A DNA stretch of 64,000 nucleotides from Siphonodentalium dalli. Lineage: Eukaryota; Mollusca; Scaphopoda; Gadilida; Siphonodentaliidae. Numbering within the stretch: the stretch's first letter is position 1; each line of letters begins with the position of its first letter. The stretch is from the NCBI GenBank assembly GCA_032622095.1, contig CP136064.1, positions 133,183,129-133,247,128 of the forward strand, in the 5' to 3' direction. Positions 10,334 through 62,002 of the stretch are shown here, piece by piece. The position numbers and the translations under genes are program-made. Under the pieces are notes generated by a model. It was given only the letters and a program-made list of their open reading frames with translations, had not been told where the DNA came from and did no database searches.

Positions 10334-12874
10334 ACCTTGGTTTGATGGTACCTGCAGAGACGCGCGTAAAACATACCGAAAAGCTAGACGCGTTGATGAT
10401 GCAATAAGTACCGATTCCTCAAAATCACGATTAAGACTAGCTGCGAGAGAATACAAGCGTGCGCTCAACCGAGCAATGAGAATCCACAGAGAGAATATAT
10501 CACGGGAAGTTTCAAAGTTGAAATACGAAAACCCGAAACAATTTTGGAAGAAAATCGGTAGTGGTCGGAAAACGACGACTACACCGATCAGCCTTGAATC
10601 GTTATATATTTATTTTAAAAATCTGAATGCGTTTGAGCACAGCGAAGATGGGACATTCCTCCAACCAATTAACCTCAACTCTGATGAGGATAACACAGAG
10701 CTCAATAAACCAATTAATGAAGAAGAAATAAAGTCTGCTATCCGAAGTCTTAGAAATAATAAATCGTGTGGGGAAGATGAAGTATTAAATGAATATATCC
10801 GTGCATCAGCCGGAAGTATCATTGATATTCTAGTTTGCCTGTTCAACCTTATATTAGACACAGGTTACATACCCGATTCGTGGACTATTGGAACGATTGT
10901 ACCGATTTATAAAAATAAGGGAGATAAGTCAGACCCAAAAAATTATAGGCCAATAACAATTTTAAGTTGTTTTGGAAAGGTTTTTACCAAAGTATTGACG
11001 ATTCGTCTAACAGACTTCACAACAAAGAACGGTATTATGTCTGAAACACAAGCAGGATTCAGACATGGCTATTCAACGTTAGATAACATATTTGCAATAC
11101 ACTTATTGGCCAAAATGACAGGAATGCTGAAAACAAGACTTTATTGCGCATTCATAGATTTCGAAAAAGCGTTCGATAAAGTTTGGAGAAAAGGCCTTTG
11201 GCATAAATTGATAAAATCTAGAATAACTGGAAAAACTCTCAGAGTAATAACTAATCTGTATAATGATATCAAGTCGTGCGTGCAACACCAAGGTGCTAAA
11301 TCCCAATATTTTGAGTGCCTCTCAGGGGTTAGACAGGGCGGAAACCTCTCACCCCTTCTTTTTTCCATCTACCTTAATGACCTGGACACTTTTCTCGCCG
11401 AACAAGGCACGAAAGGTCTTAGTACCATCTCAGATGAAATTTCCGCGAAACTACACACATATGTTCAATTATTTGTCCTTCTATACGCAGACGACACAGT
11501 AGTTATGGCAGAGACAGCGGGAAAACTGAAAAAGCAGCTTTTATCATTTGAAAGATATTGTGATATCTGGAAATTAACAGTAAACGCAGACAAAACAAAA
11601 ATTGTAATGTTCTCTAAACACGGTTTACCAAAAAATGCACAATTTAAACTCGATGGTAAAAGTATCGAAGTGGTTAAAAACTTCAATTATCTCGGAATTA
11701 TTCTCTCGAAGACGGGAAAATTTGGAGAAGCCAAGAAAAATTTGGCTTCTAAAGGCATGAAAGCAATGTACTCTGTTATATCGAAAGCCCGTAAACACTG
11801 CTTGAGTATAAAAAACCAATTCGAATTATTTGATGCACAAGTAGTGCCAGTACTCCTCTATGGGTGTGAGGTGTGGGGCCATGAAAATTGTGCTATTATT
11901 GAGAATGTTCACCGACAATTTATGAAGCACTTATTGCGACTAAAACCTTCGACGGCTGACTACATGGTTTATGCAGAAACTGGCCGAATGCCATTAGAAA
12001 TTTTAATTAAAACACGAATGATTAAATATTGGTGTAGAGTAGTTAACATGGATGAAAAGCGATATTCTAAAGTACTATATCAGTTATCACGCACGTTATC
12101 AGACGATTCAAATCACATCAGTTGGGTGAGTTCCATTCGTCACACCTTAGAGTCATGCTCCCAAGCTCATATATTTGATAGCGACATTGCGACAAATGTA
12201 GACCAACTTATCGAGTACGTGAAATGTAGTCTGATTAGCAAATTCAGATCGAACTGGGAAGCAGATCTGCAAAAATCTAGCCGGGGGAAAATATATCAGA
12301 TATTCAAACATGATATCTCATTGAAAGCTATCTAGACACTCCAAATGAATTTAATAGAACGATATTATGTAAATTTAGAACATCAAATCACCATTTGCCA
12401 GTGGAAACCGGTCGCTGGAATGGTACAGATCTAAGGGAACGAACATGCCCGCTATGTAGATATAACAGACTAGGAGACGAATTCCATTACCTATTTGAAT
12501 GTGAAGCGCTTGAGCGCGAGAGAAAATGTCATATATCAAAAGAATACCTGAATAGACCAAACATTACAACAATGCATGAACTTCTCAATGTACAAAACCC
12601 ATGCCAAATACGGCGTCTATGCAAATTTATACATACCATTTTTAAGAGGTTCGACGAAAATCCGCCTGGTTGACATATACCATCTGAACTATTTAGTATT
12701 TGATACGTATTAAACATTTCGAGTACATATAATATTCTAATCGTAACTACATGATCTCCAATGCCGCCATACATTTGTACATATTGTATATATATATACT
12801 TGTTACCAATTTTTGTATATAAGTTATGTTAATCTCCATACGCATCTGTCATGTGTCATGAGAATAAATCATTA
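10334..12874 (+). mobile_element. 5'-truncated non-LTR retrotransposon (LINE C)
   Basis: The uninterrupted right arm of the host element shows the empty site: its sequence jumps from GATGTTG to CCCGATGC exactly where this insertion lies. The LINE therefore starts at about 10334, with the coding sequence already open, and ends at about 12874 after a TGAGAATAAATCATTA tail. No clear target duplication is visible. Truncation at the 5' end is typical of target-primed reverse transcription. Confidence 0.85.
10335..12673 (+). pseudogene. LINE reverse transcriptase (LINE C ORF2 C-terminal part)
   Basis: This is the reverse transcriptase of a non-LTR retrotransposon, which would copy its own RNA at a nicked target. 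The open frame runs upstream of the ATG at 10476 to a PWFDGTC block at 10335, the usual start of the linker before the RT. Counted from the ATG, the 619 residues show NYRPI (about 156), FIDFEKAFDKVW (about 227), GVRQGGNLSPLLF (about 284) and the catalytic YADD (337-340). They are followed by a thumb region. The frame stops at 12333-12335. A neighbouring frame resumes at once and runs to 12673, carrying the C-terminal knuckle CPLC...GDEFHYLFEC. One indel near 12330 therefore separates the two. The endonuclease is missing by 5' truncation. The clade is jockey/CR1-like, not resolved further. Confidence 0.92.
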
Positions 12875-16689: not shown

Positions 16690-17347
16690 TATGGGAGGGC
16701 CTTTTCACATTTATTATTTATTTGCGCTTAAGCGTAAATGATTTGCGCTTAACCGCTAATACCTAACAATCTCTTACTTCCCTCTGATTCTGAATGATGG
16801 AGTTTATATCATAGTATATTATTATGGGCCCATAGTAGTAGCCCCATACAGACTCGAATGTTAAAAAGTCGAAAGCATCTCTCTCCCTGGTGTCACAAGA
16901 ATTGGTGCGTCACTCTCAGAGCTCTAGTATTTTGTATTAAAGGGACATCCCCTGCACAGATATATACCATTTCCATGGCCATAAAAGTGGAATTAGGGGT
17001 TACTGGGGGCTTGCTTCCCTCATATGGTGTACTTATTTAATTGAAATAGGGGGAAAAAAACATATTTTCATATCAGCATCCCTTTCCCCAAGAATTTGTG
17101 TCTCCATCCCAGCGATCTAGTATATTTTATAAAAGAGACATATCCTGCACAGATCTATACCATTTCCATGGTCATAATAGGTATCTAGGGGTTATTGGGG
17201 ATTGCTTCCATCATACGGCGGGCCTATATAGACTTGAGTGATGTGTTTATGCATATGCCATTTAAAATTATGTCAGGGGGATCAATGTAATTAATTATCT
17301 ATTTGTGCTTAAGCGCAAATATGATCTATTTGCGCTTAAGCGCAAAT
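16690..17347. mobile_element. Relic of a CTTAAG-palindrome element
   Basis: The left edge TATGGGAGGGCCTTTTCACATTT resembles the terminus of the element at 48214 (TATGGCAAGCCGTTTTCACA). As there, it is followed by CTTAAG-centred 20-bp dyads: at 16720-16739, a decayed one at 16741-16760, and two at 17301-17320 and 17328-17347 (perfect ATTTGCGCTTAAGCGCAAAT). Between the pairs lie two tandem ~200-bp units (about 16868-17035 and 17072-17230), each with CCTGCACAGAT and TACCATTTCCATGG. I find no matching right terminus. Confidence 0.65.
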
Positions 17348-22888: not shown

Positions 22889-24070
22889 ACAACAAAATAC
22901 GCGAAGTTCATGACCATGATTTCCTCCGGTCGGTCTGCAGAAAAATTATCCGTACATGTACATTTTCAGCTCTGATATTCAAACCCTTTTGTGGCCTGTA
23001 GCCAAATTATAAGATAAATTTAAGTGCCCTTTTAAGACATCTGGGTTGAACATGGTGTCCTGTATAATAAGTTAGCAATAAGTTGAGATATTTAATTAAA
23101 GTGGCATTGGATTTTCACATTTTTGATTGTTTTCGAACCGCTATGACATATAAAGTTTGTGTTTGAATTGTGTTGACGGAAAAATTTACTTTACTTATGG
23201 TGTTAGCGTTTACCTATGTTTTATAATGATTTTGATTGTTTCTGAACCGCTATGACATAAAGTTTATATTTCAATCGCGTTTACGGAAAAAGTATCTTTA
23301 CTTATGTTTTTAGTGTTTACACATGGACGGTTTATAATGCTTTTTTTTATTAATAATTTCATTATAGACAAAACATTTATTGTTTTTAACGATGATAGTG
23401 GTAATAAAAACGACTTTTGGTGTGTTTTATATGGAGCAAAATAGATAAAGTTGATTTTTTTTTTAAACATTTGGAATATTTATTGTTAAATTGTGTGCTT
23501 TAAAATCGAAGACTGTTTTTTTTTTTAATAAGTTAGCATTAAATTGAGATATATAGTTAAAGTGCCATAATTTGATTGTTTTGGAACCGCTATGACATAT
23601 AAATTTTGTGTTTGAATTGTGTTGACGGAAATATTAACTTTACTTATGGTGTTATGATCGTCGGTGACTTGGAACGTGTCCGTGGATTAGATGAAATGTG
23701 GAATTCAAATAGGCAGGGTGTGTGAAAAAGGCATACCCACTTGCTTTGTGAAGCCTTGTTTTCTGAGTACGCTCTTTCTATTGATAGGGAGCATATTTAC
23801 GGTCCGGCTATATACAGTATACAGGGTAAATGTTTTAATGTGAACACAAACCTGCCCATTCTATTTTAAATCATCGATACGTCCGGAGCTTCGCGAAAAA
23901 AAAAACGTTCTGGCCATGGAGGCGGCCTTGTTAGCCAGAGAGGCGACTAATCGAATGGTATGTGTGATCTTGATCTGAGTGGCCTTGACCTTCTTTTATC
24001 GCTCATTTTACACATGCAGTTACATGCATACATACATACATATATTTGGTTTATTTATAGCTGATCATAC
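22889..24070. other. Repeat-bearing spacer between pseudogene and CUB exon
   Basis: About 23105-23655 contains three diverged copies of a passage with GAACCGCTATGACATA, GTGTTGACGGAAA and ACTTTACTTATGGTGTTA. About 23660-24050 has nothing I recognise. Confidence 0.5.
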
Positions 24071-40238: not shown

Positions 40239-41410
40239 TAAATGTATATACCACCACGTAGTATAAGTGATTTCACTTACTCGCGGCGAATCCGCCATTT
40301 GGTCTCCGGAGGTCAAAGTTAACAAGTAGCATCTATGTTTAGCATATGACTCCAGTCTGGGAATTCCCAAAATAAAATGGCAACAGGTCGTTATGAGGCC
40401 CCCACCCCCCCCCCCCCTTCGTACGCCGTATTCCATGCCCTGTTATGAGGTACGCCGTATTCCGGCCCCTCTGTTAGGAGGTATTCGGTATTCCAAATAT
40501 ACCGGTATTCGTACGCCGACCTTCCAAAAAATGAAGTTTTCATATATTTTTATGTATTCCATATGACTGTTAACTGGTATTCCGTATTCCACCCTCTGTA
40601 TTAAGTGGTATTCCGTATTCCATGGGAGTGGGGGTGGTGGCCTCCGTTATCGTATCGCAGGTGCGAGAACTTCATAAAACTATTTAAACACTCACCCTGG
40701 ATACATACGATACATAGGTTTCACACAGTAGATGGATTGGATGTATCACGTATGTTTTTGAGTTATTTTTTTAACGCAAGAACTCGCTATTTATCAGTAA
40801 CTTATGGGAAGTTCGTTGACAAAAAAGAGCGTCTGAATGTCTGCATCGTCACCAGATCCTAACTCTATAGATGACATGGCCACAAAACAATTCTTAAACA
40901 CGTAGTTGCACTCAGAATAAATGAAATTGAGCCATAAAATGTTGATAAAAAATTCTCGCACTCAGCTGTCGAATGTTTACAAATGGTCGAAATGGATGCT
41001 ACTTCTCAACTTTGACCTTTTACCGGCTTTTACTGGTGGGTTGGATAAAAAGCTAGGAATCGGACCATATGGAACCATCGGCCATTTTGAAAATCGCGAA
41101 CCAGTAAAAAGGCTTATTGTATGAAGGCCAAATTCACTTTTACTAATTATTTTGCTTAAGCTCAAATGTGTACATTCCCAATCAATATAGATCTTCCCTC
41201 AAAAATAAAATATGCTTCCCCATGTTTTAACTTCTAATGCGTGGTGGACTCTGCCACTATCAACAGGGTGTGTTTGGTAAGGTTGACCTGTGTAGAGTCC
41301 ATGTCAAGCAGGGCCCCGCATGGAGGAAGCTTAGTACGTACCCGACTTAGCAGGTAGAATAGAAAATTCCCCTGTCCTGCTACAGTCGGTAATCCGGTCG
41401 CTGAGTGAGC
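40239..41410. other. Unassigned DNA with GTATTCCGTATTCC words
   Basis: About 40430-40625 repeats GGTATTCCGTATTCC-like and TACGCCGTATTCC words next to a C run near 40400. The rest has no recognised feature. Confidence 0.45.
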
Positions 41411-47727: not shown

Positions 47728-48213
47728 TGTTTATATCAAGAGCGGACAAACCAGAATCGCTACACGAGAAGGGGTGGACATAACCAGGACGGACCTTCAG
47801 GACTCGAAGCATATTATATGAGCAAGACGGCTGTCAATGACGGCTGTCAATCAAGGCTATAGGGTGGACATGGAGATGATGCATTGTCGAAATCCGGATG
47901 AAAAATGACCGATGTGAAGAGAAACAATCGTGTTTCGTGTGTATGGTATGTTCTATGGACAATTCTATCATTATTGTTAGTCAAGACGGACATTGGACAA
48001 TGACGTCAATGGCGCTGTTTTCGACCCCAATGAAACGGCATTGAGATACTATGTTCGGAATCGAACTGTTGTCTTTATCTTACAAACTTTAATCGACATC
48101 GTCCCTTACCATCTGAACTTTATTGCTATCTAAATTATCTAAACGAAAACCAACAAACCCTTGGTGCCGCGCCGGTAGACGAAAGGTGGGGAAAATTCGT
48201 TTGGGTTATATAG
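47728..48213. other. Unassigned DNA
   Basis: A GACGGCTGTCAAT direct doublet near 47830 resembles, inverted, ATTGACAGCCGTC near 49600 inside the next element. No gene is seen. Confidence 0.45.
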
Positions 48214-48245
48214 TATGGCAAGCCGTTTTCACATTTTCGATTGAT

Positions 48246-48479
48246 TTGGACTTAAGTCCAAATAGCGAATTGGACTTAAGTCCAATTACCACATAATTGT
48301 GAATTCGGCGAGGAATTGTACTTAAGTCCAAATGAATTACACTTAAGTCCAAATACCGATATTTTCATCTATTTGGACTTAAGTCCAATTCCTCGCCGAA
48401 TTCACAATTATGTGGTATTTGGACTTAAGTACAATTCATTTGGACTTAAGTACAATTCATTTGGACTTAAGTACAATTC
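48246..48479. repeat. Left array of CTTAAG dyads
   Basis: There are eight copies of the GGACTTAAGTCC dyad or variants (GTACTTAAGTCC, ACACTTAAGTCC, GGACTTAAGTAC). An inverted arm pair (CCTCGCCGAATTCACAATTA and its complement) is nested between them. Confidence 0.92.
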
Positions 48480-49725
48480 ATCTGTAAAAGAAACACCCCC
48501 ATCAGATATTAAGCAGGTCTGGTTTTGCTCATAGGGCGGAGTTGTGGGAAAATGGCCGTTTACATGTGGGTCTAATTCTTGTTGATCTTGTTAATTGTTA
48601 CCTTTTTCAACATATATAATGAATCAGCTCGATGGACGAGATCATATCAACAATAGCCCGTGTTGTAAGAAGTTCGGAACGATTTTTAACATATGATGAT
48701 GTCTGTCTGTCAAAACATTACATCGACTGAGTTGACATCGCTTGAGGTGGCCTCACTGACCAGGCTTCACTGATCAGTCAAAGCATTCTTTGATGTCTGC
48801 ATTTTATTAGTATGGTGGGTAAATGTCCGGTGGGTAATTGTCCGGGTGGGGAAATGTCCGTATACCGATAATAATGTTACCAGAGTCCGACCAGGTAGAT
48901 AAAATACCACCCCTTGCTCTTTATAATTTTAACCTGATAAAAAAGGTACAACTTATGTACAGGGTCCACACTCGATCGAGGCTGCGTGCACTAATGGCAT
49001 TATGACTGCTAATTTGTTTATATATTTGACCAAATTTATAGAAATAGTGGGCTAAAGCGTATGTTAACACTGAGTCTGAGAAATATATAATGTAAATTAT
49101 TTTTGCAATTTCCTTCTGATCAAGCCAATTGATGCAAAGAAGTCTCTGTAGAATAGATTGACAAAGTTAACTGAGGCTGTGCTTCACGCAGTCATTACAA
49201 TAGCAATAGAAGGGGAGTCACTCTAATCTATTGTTTTGGCATAATTCGACTTTCGAGTACACCCTTATTACATTGAGTTTGAAAACCGAGCAAATTATAC
49301 AAATAAGACACTTAGTAAATGCAATAAACGAAACTGCGTGTAGCATACACTACATGCTGTCAAATAACAATTGAATCAAGTCGTGAATTAATTTTCATTC
49401 ATGCATGCATTTAGCATTTATTAAGATCCAATTCGGATTCGAAACATTTTCAATCTCGGCATGCCGAAAACAAGCCACGTGGCAAAGGGGACGTACGGAG
49501 TCAAGCTATACGCTCATGCTATGATTTGTAAGTCCCGCGTACGGCGCGTAGCATAGGGGACTGAACTCTGTCTTGCAGTTTGGTACGGAGTTAGTCTTGA
49601 TTGACAGCCGTCTTGTGTATGCTTGGAGTCAGGAATGCCCTGGTTAGTACGGAGTTTGACTGTCAATCAAAACTTGCAGGAATATACCATTACAAAGAAG
49701 GGGACCATCGTTTCAAACCAGATGA

Positions 49726-50008
49726 ATTGGACTTAAGTCCAAATGAATTGGACTTAAGTCCAAATCAATTCACTAATTGGACTTAAGTCCAAATAATTGG
49801 ACTTAAGTCCAATTAATTGGACTTAAGTCCAATTCATTTGGACTTAAGTCCAAATCAATTCGCTAATTGGACTTAAGTCCAATTCATTTGGACTTAAGTC
49901 CAATTCATTTGGACTTGAGTCCAATTCATTGGACTAAAGTCCAATTCATTGGACTTAAGTCCAAATAATTGGACTTAAGTCCAAATCATTGGACTTAAGT
50001 TCAAATCA
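49726..50008. repeat. Right array of CTTAAG dyads
   Basis: There are thirteen copies spaced about 18-30 bp apart. Most are perfect GGACTTAAGTCC with AATT/AAAT linkers. Single-base variants are GGACTTGAGTCC, GGACTAAAGTCC and GGACTTAAGTTC. Confidence 0.95.
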
Positions 50009-50202
50009 ATCAAAAATGTGAAAACGGCTTGCCATAATAGAGACCCACTTCTTCAGATATGATATACAAAAGATTCATGTGAAAATCGCGCAGATATACA
50101 ACATTCTCCTGATGTCAGCAAAGTTCTTAAGAATTAAAAAACATAGATGAAATAATTTCCAGTCAGATACGACCCAGGAATGACACAATTAGAGACGTCG
50201 AC

Positions 50203-59006: not shown

Positions 59007-59940
59007 TTCGACCGATTTGACGGCATGGGTTGGTGGCCGGCCCCAAATACCACCTAGAAACACCCCGACCCCCCACCCATCACCCCGACCCCCCACCCAT
59101 CACCCACGGGGGGTGCCACCCCGAGTGGGTGAAAATGGGGTATGGACCATTTTCGAGAACGGAAAGGATTTCGACCGATTTGACGGCATGGGTGTGTGAC
59201 CGGCCCCAAATACCACCTAGAAACGCCCGACCCCCCCCACCCATCACCCCCGGGGGTGCCACCCGAGGGGGTGAAAATATGGGGTATGGACCATTTTTGA
59301 GAACGGAAACGATTTCGACCGATTTGACGGAATGGGTGGGTGGCCGGCCCCATATACCACCTAGAAACACCCCCACCCCCACCCATCGCCCCCGGGGGTG
59401 CCACCCCGAGGTGGTGAAATGGGGTATGGAACATTTTCGAGAACGGTAAGGATTTCGACCGATGTGACGGCATGGGTGGGTGGCCGGCTCCAAATACCAC
59501 ATAGAAACACCCGACCCCCCCCCCCCCACCATCACCCCGGGGGTGCCACCCCGAGGGGGTGAAAATGGGGTATGGACCATTTTCGAGAACGGTAAGGATT
59601 TCGACCGATTTGACGGCATGGGTGGGTGGCCGGCCCCAAATACCACCTAGAAACACCCCGACCCCCACCCATCACCCCCGGGGGGTGCCACCCCGAGGGG
59701 GTGAAAATGGGGTATGGACCATTTTCGAGAACGGAAAGGATTTCGACCAATTTGACGGCATTGGTGGGTGGCCGGCCCCAAATACCACCTAGAAACACCC
59801 CAAACCATCACCCCCGGGGGTGCCACCCCGAGGTGGTGAAAATTGGGTGTGGACCATTTTCGAGCACGGAAAGGATTTCGACCGATTTGACGGCATGGTT
59901 GGGTGGCCGGCCCCAAATACCATCTAGAAACACCCCGACC
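59007..59940 (+). repeat. 145-bp tandem unit, left arm (7 copies)
   Basis: Each unit reads CGACCGATTTGACGGCATGG, GGTGGCCGGCCCCAAATACC, CATCACCCCCGGGGGTGCCA and GGGGTATGGACCATTTTCGA. Starts are at about 59017, 59168, 59318, 59457, 59600, 59745 and 59879. Confidence 0.95.
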
Positions 59941-59949
59941 CCCCTATAG

Positions 59950-61600
59950 TATATAGGTAGTAACCCCCCACCACCCCATCCCGCCTCCCATAGTATCTTA
60001 TGCGCCGCAGGCGCTCGTATATAGGTAGTACCCACCCACCACCCCATCCCGCCACCCATAGTTTCTTATGCGCCGCAGGCGCTCGTATATAGGTAGTACC
60101 AAATCCACCACCCCATCCCGCCACCCTTAGTATCGTATGCGCCGCAGGCGCTCGTATATAGGTAGTACCCACCCATCATCCCATCCCGCCACCCATAGTA
60201 TCTTATGCGCCGCAGGCGCTCGTATATAGGTGTGTACTATCAGTATACGAGCGCCTGCGGCGCATAAAATACTATGGGTGGCGGGATGGGGTGGTGGGTG
60301 AGTACTACCACTATACGAGCGCCTGCGGCGCATAAGATACTATGAGTGGCGGGATGGGGTGGTGGGTGGGTACTACCAGTATACCTATATAACCACTATG
60401 GGTGGTGGGATGTGGTGGTGGGTGGGTACTATATACTATGGGTGGCGGGATGGAGTGGTGGTGGGTACTACCTATATACGAGCGCCTGCGGCGCATAAGA
60501 TATTATGGTGGCGGGATGGGATGATGGGTGGGTACTATGCCTATATACGAGCGCCTGCGGCGCATAATATACTATGGGTGGCGGGATGGGGTGGTGGGTG
60601 GGTATTACCTATATACGAGCGCCCGCGGCGCATAAGATACTATGGGTGGCGGGATGGGGTGCTGGGTGGCTACTACATATGTACCCACCACCCCATCCCG
60701 CCACCCATAGTATCTTATGCGCCGCGGGCGCTCGTATATAGGTAATACCCACCTACCACCCCATCCCGCCACACATATTCTCTTATGCGCCGCAGGCGCT
60801 CGAATATTGGTAAGTAAACACCCACCACCCCATCCCGCAACCCATAGTATCTTATGCGCCGCAGGCGCTCGTATATAGGTGTGTACTACCAGTATACGGC
60901 GCCTGCGGCGCATACAATACTATGGGTGGCGGGATGGGGTGGTGGGTGAGTACTACCACTATACGAGCGCCTGCGGCGCATAAGATACTATGGGTGACGG
61001 GATGGGGTGGTGGGTGGGTACTACCAGTATACCCATATAACCACTATGGGTGGCGGGATGTGGTGGTGGGTGGGTACTATATACTATATGGGTGGCGGGA
61101 TGGAGTGGTGAATGGGTACTACCTATATACGAGCGCCTGCGGCGCATAAGATATTATGGGTGGCGGGATGGGATGATGGGTGGGTACTATACATATATAC
61201 GAGCGCCTGCGGCGCATAATATAATATGGGTGGCGGGATGGGGTGGTGGGTGGGTATTACCTATATACGAGCGCCCGCGGCGCATAAGATACTATGGGTG
61301 GCGGGATGGGGTGCTGGGTGGCTACTACATATGTACCCACCAGTATATATACGTATGGGTGGCGGGATGGGGTGGTGTGTGGGTACTACCAGTATACGAG
61401 CGCCTGTTGCGCATAAGATACTATGGGTGGCGGGATGGGGTGCTGGGTGGCTACTACATATGTACCCACCAGTATATATATACGTATGGGTGGCGGGATG
61501 GGGTGGTGGGTGGGTACTACCAGTATACGAGCGCCGGTGGCGCATAAGATACTATGGGTGGCGGGATGGGGTGGTGGGTGGGTACTACCTATATACCACG
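59950..61600. repeat. ~65-bp G-rich satellite in alternating orientation
   Basis: The unit contains GAGCGCCTGCGGCGCATAAG and GGGTGGCGGGATGGGGTGGT followed by GGGTGGG. The minus orientation covers about 59950-60240, plus 60240-60665, minus 60680-60890 and plus 60895-61600. The G-rich strand fits the G-quadruplex pattern (four runs of three or more G with short loops). Confidence 0.93.
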
Positions 61601-61603
61601 CCA

Positions 61604-61935
61604 TCCCGGCCACCCACCCATGCCGTCAAATCGGTCGAAATCCTTACCGGTCTCGAAAATGGTCCATACCCCATTTTCACCCCCTCGGGTGGCACCCCCG
61701 GGGGTGATGGGTGGGGGGTCGGGTTGTTTCTATGTGATATTTGGGGCCGGCCACCCACCCATGCCGTCAAATCGGTCGAAATCCTTTCCGTTCTCGAAAA
61801 TGGTCCATACCCCATTTCCACCCCCTCGGGGTGGCACCCCCCCCCCCCCTCCGGGGGGTGATGGGTGGGTTCGGGGTGTTTCTATGTGGTATTTGGGACC
61901 GGCCACCCACCCATGCCGTCAAATCGGTCGAAAGT
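61604..61935 (-). repeat. 145-bp tandem unit, right arm (2-3 copies)
   Basis: It is the reverse complement of the left-arm unit (GGCCGGCCACCCACCCATGC, CCGTCAAATCGGTCG). Starts are near 61604, 61743 and 61900. Confidence 0.93.
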
Positions 61936-62002
61936 GACATTTTTAAAAATAAGGAATAAGGAATAGGGAATAAGTTCCAAATGTCATGTTCGTTGCTTAC
62001 CT

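Follow-up and report, generated by a model that had tools for sequence, protein, structure and literature searches.

The CACTA transposon Spm carries many subterminal sites that engage several protomers. The hAT transposon Hermes is described in similar terms, and Dada elements are described as inserting into multicopy RNA genes. In piggyBac and piggyBat, the two C-terminal domains of the dimeric transposase contact a palindrome close to the tip, and a separate motif is recognised by the core (PMC11707139); the tips of piggyBac are given as CC..GG (PMC10045372). Galileo is reported to hold several transposase binding sites within its long ends (PMC3688188). IS3EU elements are characterised by TA..TA termini and usually by 6-bp target-site duplications (PMC10045372), and the fungal IS3EU families by TAYGG..CCRTA tips and terminal inverted repeats of more than 30 bp (PMC12730594).

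We report the analysis of an element at 48214-50036 of a 64-kb stretch of DNA, referred to here as the window, and of its relatives in the window's own genome (2.23 Gb, nine contigs; probably eukaryotic, judging by its size and content). The element carries arrays of a palindromic dyad at both ends. Comparison of its sequence with those of its relatives suggests that it is probably a non-autonomous cut-and-paste transposon of the IS3EU type, whose arrays would be loaded by dimers of a transposase.

The element at 48214-50036 and its copies

Both boundaries of the element are exact, with TATGGCAAGCCGTTTTCACATTT at 48214-48236 on the forward strand and at 50014-50036 on the reverse strand of the window. 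The inverted ends, 48 bp in length with 2 mismatches, lie at 48214-48261 (forward) and 49989-50036 (reverse) and include the outermost dyad, the left one containing the first dyad of the left array. This array of 8 dyads extends over 48246-48476 and the right array, of 13 dyads, over 49727-50004; no open frame that reaches 90 codons is present in the interior (48477-49726) or in the element as a whole. The left array holds a 67-nt inverted repeat (48267-48333/48371-48437), and the motif GAATTCGGCGAGG at 48301-48313 (forward) is the first half of an inverted pair with its second half at 48391-48403 (reverse). In most copies read this pair, GAATTCGGCGAGG/CCTCGCCGAATTC, is found at one end only (29 of 31 pairs of tips), and one half alone is present in locus L014 and in one pair of locus L048. 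Inside the element and outside the dyad arrays, GGTGGGTAAATGTCCG stands three times in tandem at 48814-48860. Elsewhere in the window, a reverse transcriptase frame of a LINE-like element lies at 10335-12335 (RVT_1, E 8.9e-37 for 10476-12332) and G+C-rich minisatellites with periods of about 68 and about 140, in both orientations, occupy 59020-61940. An Rfam search of the 64-kb window returned no match.

The exact 23-bp tip of the element occurs 632 times in the genome (318 + 314), against 0 for the control, and the 12-mer GGACTTAAGTCC occurs 4068 times, its reversed control 99 times. Querying the genome with the complete element yielded at least 219 matching stretches, with the best 40 of 1915 candidates scored. 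In the 24 copies that span 900 or more of the 980 interior bases, identity to the window element over this part is 94.6-99.3%. The first-pass annotation of the window had described an element with terminal inverted repeats and had proposed a genome search for the same ends. That search, in which the lack of any second copy would have spoken against the reading, reveals further copies, and the hundreds of exact tips, together with the target duplications described below, bear the description out. In viral contigs the dyad was found in three contigs, as a single isolated and chance-like occurrence in each, and the tip in none; in bacterial contigs two had a tip-like string, again chance-like and without a dyad; and no double dyad was found in genome contigs other than those of the element's own genome.

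Target-site duplications were counted in the 35 pairs of tips for which both ends and flanks are readable, a sample made up of neither the one-end loci nor the element split over loci L046 and L047, and the removal of four flank-sharing duplicates (L029, L032, L036 and L041) left 31 independent insertions. An exact 6-bp duplication is present in 26 of these, and a longer one in none. In three, the window copy among them (ATATAG at 48208-48213, ATAGAG at 50037-50042), five of the six bases match; the remaining two are pairs of locus L048, where elements abut or nest. The split element, a tip pair spanning 11.9 kb, has CAGTCC at both ends. The 4-bp ATAG duplication of the first-pass annotation must therefore be revised, since the 26 exact cases identify it as part of a decayed 6-bp duplication and rule out both a 4-bp duplication and the reading as a TA element. 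The duplications of the 31 insertions have no common target, and TATGG..CCATA tips are found in the window copy and in the paired copies read. The flank-sharing copies form pairs at different places (L028/L029, L030/L032, L035/L036 and L038/L041, two of them inverted) and have the appearance expected if a segment had been duplicated or if they had inserted into another repeat.

The dyad and its arrays

With up to two mismatches allowed, GGACTTAAGTCC has 21 matches in the 64 kb, all of them within the element and divided 8 left and 13 right, whereas shuffled windows have a mean of 1.67 and a maximum of 6, and 0 of 100 reach 21. These are the counts that had been annotated, and the single CTTGAG and the single CTAAAG noted in the right array are likewise present. 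The consensus of 636 dyads from 35 elements (a set, used also for the spacings, that retains the duplicates L029, L032, L036 and L041) is a 20-bp palindrome, AWTTGGACTTAAGTCCAAWT, in which the core is fixed by the selection of the dyads. When dyads from sampled genomic copies are selected by their arms instead, CTTAAG is intact in 399 of 416, a change of 0.5-1.0% per core position. Among 570 dyads selected by the core, the arms vary in 7-11% at the fifth and sixth positions from the centre and in 0.2-1.6% at their remaining positions; conservation of the linkers between dyads is weak. The suggested alignment of the dyads, with their spacing, thus upholds the earlier observation that the core is kept far better than the linkers.

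The centre of the first dyad lies 40 bp from the tip in 33 of 35 left ends and 26 of 35 right ends, and the 9 right ends that depart from this count against our explanation. The commonest spacings between neighbouring dyads in the 35 elements are 20 bp (172), 21 bp (156), 46 bp (60) and 29 bp (57), so that sites of 20 bp, spaced at 20 or 21 bp, abut one another. The first-pass annotation had conceded that its reading would fail if the dyads were one simple satellite unrelated to the ends; this is ruled out by the offset of 40 bp, which is fixed in more than one lineage, the GCG lineage discussed below included.

Another explanation is that the arrays are a minisatellite by-product: slippage, unequal exchange or gene conversion would have multiplied a palindrome belonging to the inverted repeat, leaving the additional copies idle. 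Among copies, the distance from the tip to the GAATTCGGCGAGG motif changes in steps of about 20 bp (72, 87, 107, 127 and 147 from the left), from which dyad sites seem to be gained or lost as units, and such stepwise variation in site number, as in a minisatellite, speaks against our explanation. The period of 20 that Tandem Repeats Finder assigns to the right array and the inverted duplication within the left array favour the by-product too, but we consider it unlikely, as both ends bear arrays, the first site keeps its offset from the tip across lineages that have different dyads, and the core is nearly invariant while the linkers are not.

Far less probable is that the dyads form hairpins or cruciforms and are recognised by their shape instead of their sequence. 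In favour of this, the arrays are self-complementary and every site comes close to a perfect inverted repeat; against it, a loop is lacking and the sequence of the core hardly varies. Moreover, at position 5 of the GGA dyads (loci L056 and L058 being excluded from this count) one half is changed in 72 of 443 and both halves in just one, to different bases, such that a symmetric double change occurs 0 times, and this distribution makes a role for the hairpin unlikely.

Sister lineages and the search for a transposase

Exact symmetric 16-mer dyads with the half-sites GCG, GGA, GCA and GAG number 10,339, 3,931, 843 and 28 in the genome, respectively, against 0 for the controls, so that the genome holds about 15,000 exact sites. 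Dyads that mix GGA with GCA were observed 242 times against 1557 expected under independence, making them 6.4-fold rarer, partly because of common descent within lineages. The GCA-type copies L056 and L058 have a 23-bp tip identical to that of the window element, from which it follows that tip and dyad vary separately. Their arrays are uneven and contain mixed dyads, which counts against our explanation; these might be older or intermediate copies.

A second element of the same kind, with the dyad TTTGCGCTTAAGCGCAAA and the tip TATGGGAGGGCCTTTTCACATTT, lies at 16690-17346 of the window on the forward strand, as measured from the left tip to the last dyad, no right tip being recognised there; the centre of its first dyad is again 40 bp from the tip. 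The kind that it represents is the larger, with 3773 first-look candidates and 1093 + 1064 exact ends in the genome, and a related copy at locus L065 has the 6-bp duplication CAAAGC. The surrounding stretch of the window is 91-92% identical to L060 along 2.5 kb and to L062 along 3.1 kb; since the match continues well past its limits, the second element is a passenger in a larger repeat. In L063, two right tips of this second family stand 67 bp apart (at 982 and 1049), an arrangement that recurs in L064 and looks like one element nested in another. At 41120-41167, on the forward strand, a stretch with one dyad (TATGAAGGCC..) may be what remains of a third left end; it scores 42 against the end of the second element, with a simulated maximum of 38 in 20 windows. 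This is a weak candidate because the same statistic flags a tip-like match at 23112 (score 43, simulated maximum 36), which was rejected as it has neither the TATGG end nor a dyad.

The occurrence of symmetric dyads that are specific to a lineage, at a conserved geometry, strengthens the first-pass interpretation of the dyads as putative binding sites for a dimer. A host factor, or an accessory protein or repressor of the element, might bind in place of a transposase, given that a palindromic site implies only a binder that is likely to be symmetric and that no transposase was found in the copies read. We regard this as rather improbable, slightly more so than the minisatellite by-product, for the half-site varies among lineages within one genome, which is unexpected for a single conserved host factor, and the offset from the tip is fixed.

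The autonomous relative that the first-pass annotation had proposed looking for was sought in the long copies read and was not found, and this counts against our explanation as regards both the superfamily and the binding. By inspection of the open frames by eye, in a search that covered part of the copies, no transposase was seen in tip pairs 2.6-11.9 kb apart (L046-L050, L056 and L058), in the 6 kb behind an unpaired left tip (L057) or in the central 1.5 kb of a GCG-type pair that spans 3.6 kb (L066). A profile of four frames with the Pfam domain rva_4, which may be the integrase of the IS3EU type, detected no transposase in the window or in the loci from L010 on (before L066), though one that is not rva_4-like could be missed by this profile. 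The domain itself has at least 126 matches in the genome (150 of 241 candidates scored), Pfam agreeing for the four frames scanned, and none was seen inside elements of the dyad-array family. Five loci around such matches (L051-L055) contained no dyad array and no inverted ends with a duplication in the stretch fetched. On contig C1, for which the list of exact GGA-lineage tips is complete, about 240 kb separate the closest tip from an rva_4 match (by eye), and on contig C2 the match at 85189660 lies about 7.4 kb outside the complete tip pair 85197540-85198818. One repeat, in which no ends were recognised, carries an rva_4 frame 294 codons long and is represented by at least eight equally scoring matches; L051 and L055 are copies of it that agree at 97.6% over 4.4 kb. 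Between family tips in L048, a frame of 189 codons (1692-2258) has similarity to GDSL-like lipases (E 1.4e-5, below the Pfam cut-off).

Proposed mechanism and comparison with known systems

Under the transposase-dimer reading, a transposase supplied from another locus would occupy each palindrome through its DNA-binding domain, acting as a dimer. Because the sites abut and recur every 20-21 bp, or about two turns of the helix, they could load many protomers in phase, and this loading would raise affinity and specificity and help to pair the ends, with the catalytic core of the transposase acting on the tip. What would chiefly distinguish the lineages is the half-site read by the domain (positions 4 and 5, counted from the centre), which would be the same in most sites of a given element.

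More tentatively, we envisage a possible history, for which the odds are a little less than even, in which a lineage of the IS3EU type turned both of its ends into long protein-loading arrays and, in the course of its history, switched the half-site (GGA, GCA, GCG) over most of the sites; the geometry would have been retained throughout, and in the change between GGA and GCA the tip as well. This would amount to an array-wide co-evolution of the DNA-binding domain of the transposase with some 20 sites per element, mixed copies such as L058 being intermediates. Should the inference hold, a single genome holds a series of naturally occurring transposon ends that share their layout but have had the transposase's palindrome rewritten, and both the joint change of a DNA-binding domain with a many-site transposon end and the question of why some transposons have so many sites become testable.

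The element can be separated from several superfamilies by its insertions and tips. Duplications of 6 bp with varied sequence and TATGG..CCATA tips exclude it from piggyBac, which has the target TTAA; the duplications of 6 bp that flank the TATGG tips in 26 of the 31 insertions exclude it from Tc1/mariner, with its TA duplication; and the absence of a shared target among the duplications of the 31 insertions sets it apart from Dada. Many subterminal sites are common to it and to hAT (Hermes) and CACTA (Spm) elements, but these have target-site duplications of 8 bp and 3 bp, respectively, and other tips, and their sites are shorter and are not abutting 20-bp palindromes. The duplication length of Galileo also differs from that of the element. 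Galileo and Foldback-like ends are similar in having several sites within long, internally repetitive ends, whereas Galileo belongs to the P-element superfamily, with a THAP domain and other tips (PMC3688188). With piggyBac and piggyBat the element shares a palindrome near the tip (PMC11707139), though there are one to three palindromes in those transposons as compared with about twenty here.

On the basis of its TATGG..CCATA tips, 6-bp duplications and inverted repeats of 48 bp, and hence of more than 30 bp, we file the family as a non-autonomous family of the IS3EU type, by which a large, gene-less repeat family is assigned to a likely superfamily. Autonomous IS3EU copies would carry a DDD/E transposase of the IS3EU/GingerRoot lineage, and none was seen in the long copies read here; the available portions of two accounts do not mention subterminal arrays of one palindrome for IS3EU (PMC10045372, PMC12730594), the only use of 'palindrom' in that of the latter concerning the borders of exchanged genes. 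In the literature as partially covered, nothing was found that joins CTTAAG, transposon and subterminal. The superfamily is one already known and the family itself may be catalogued; what appears to be new is the arrays and their lineage-specific palindromes.
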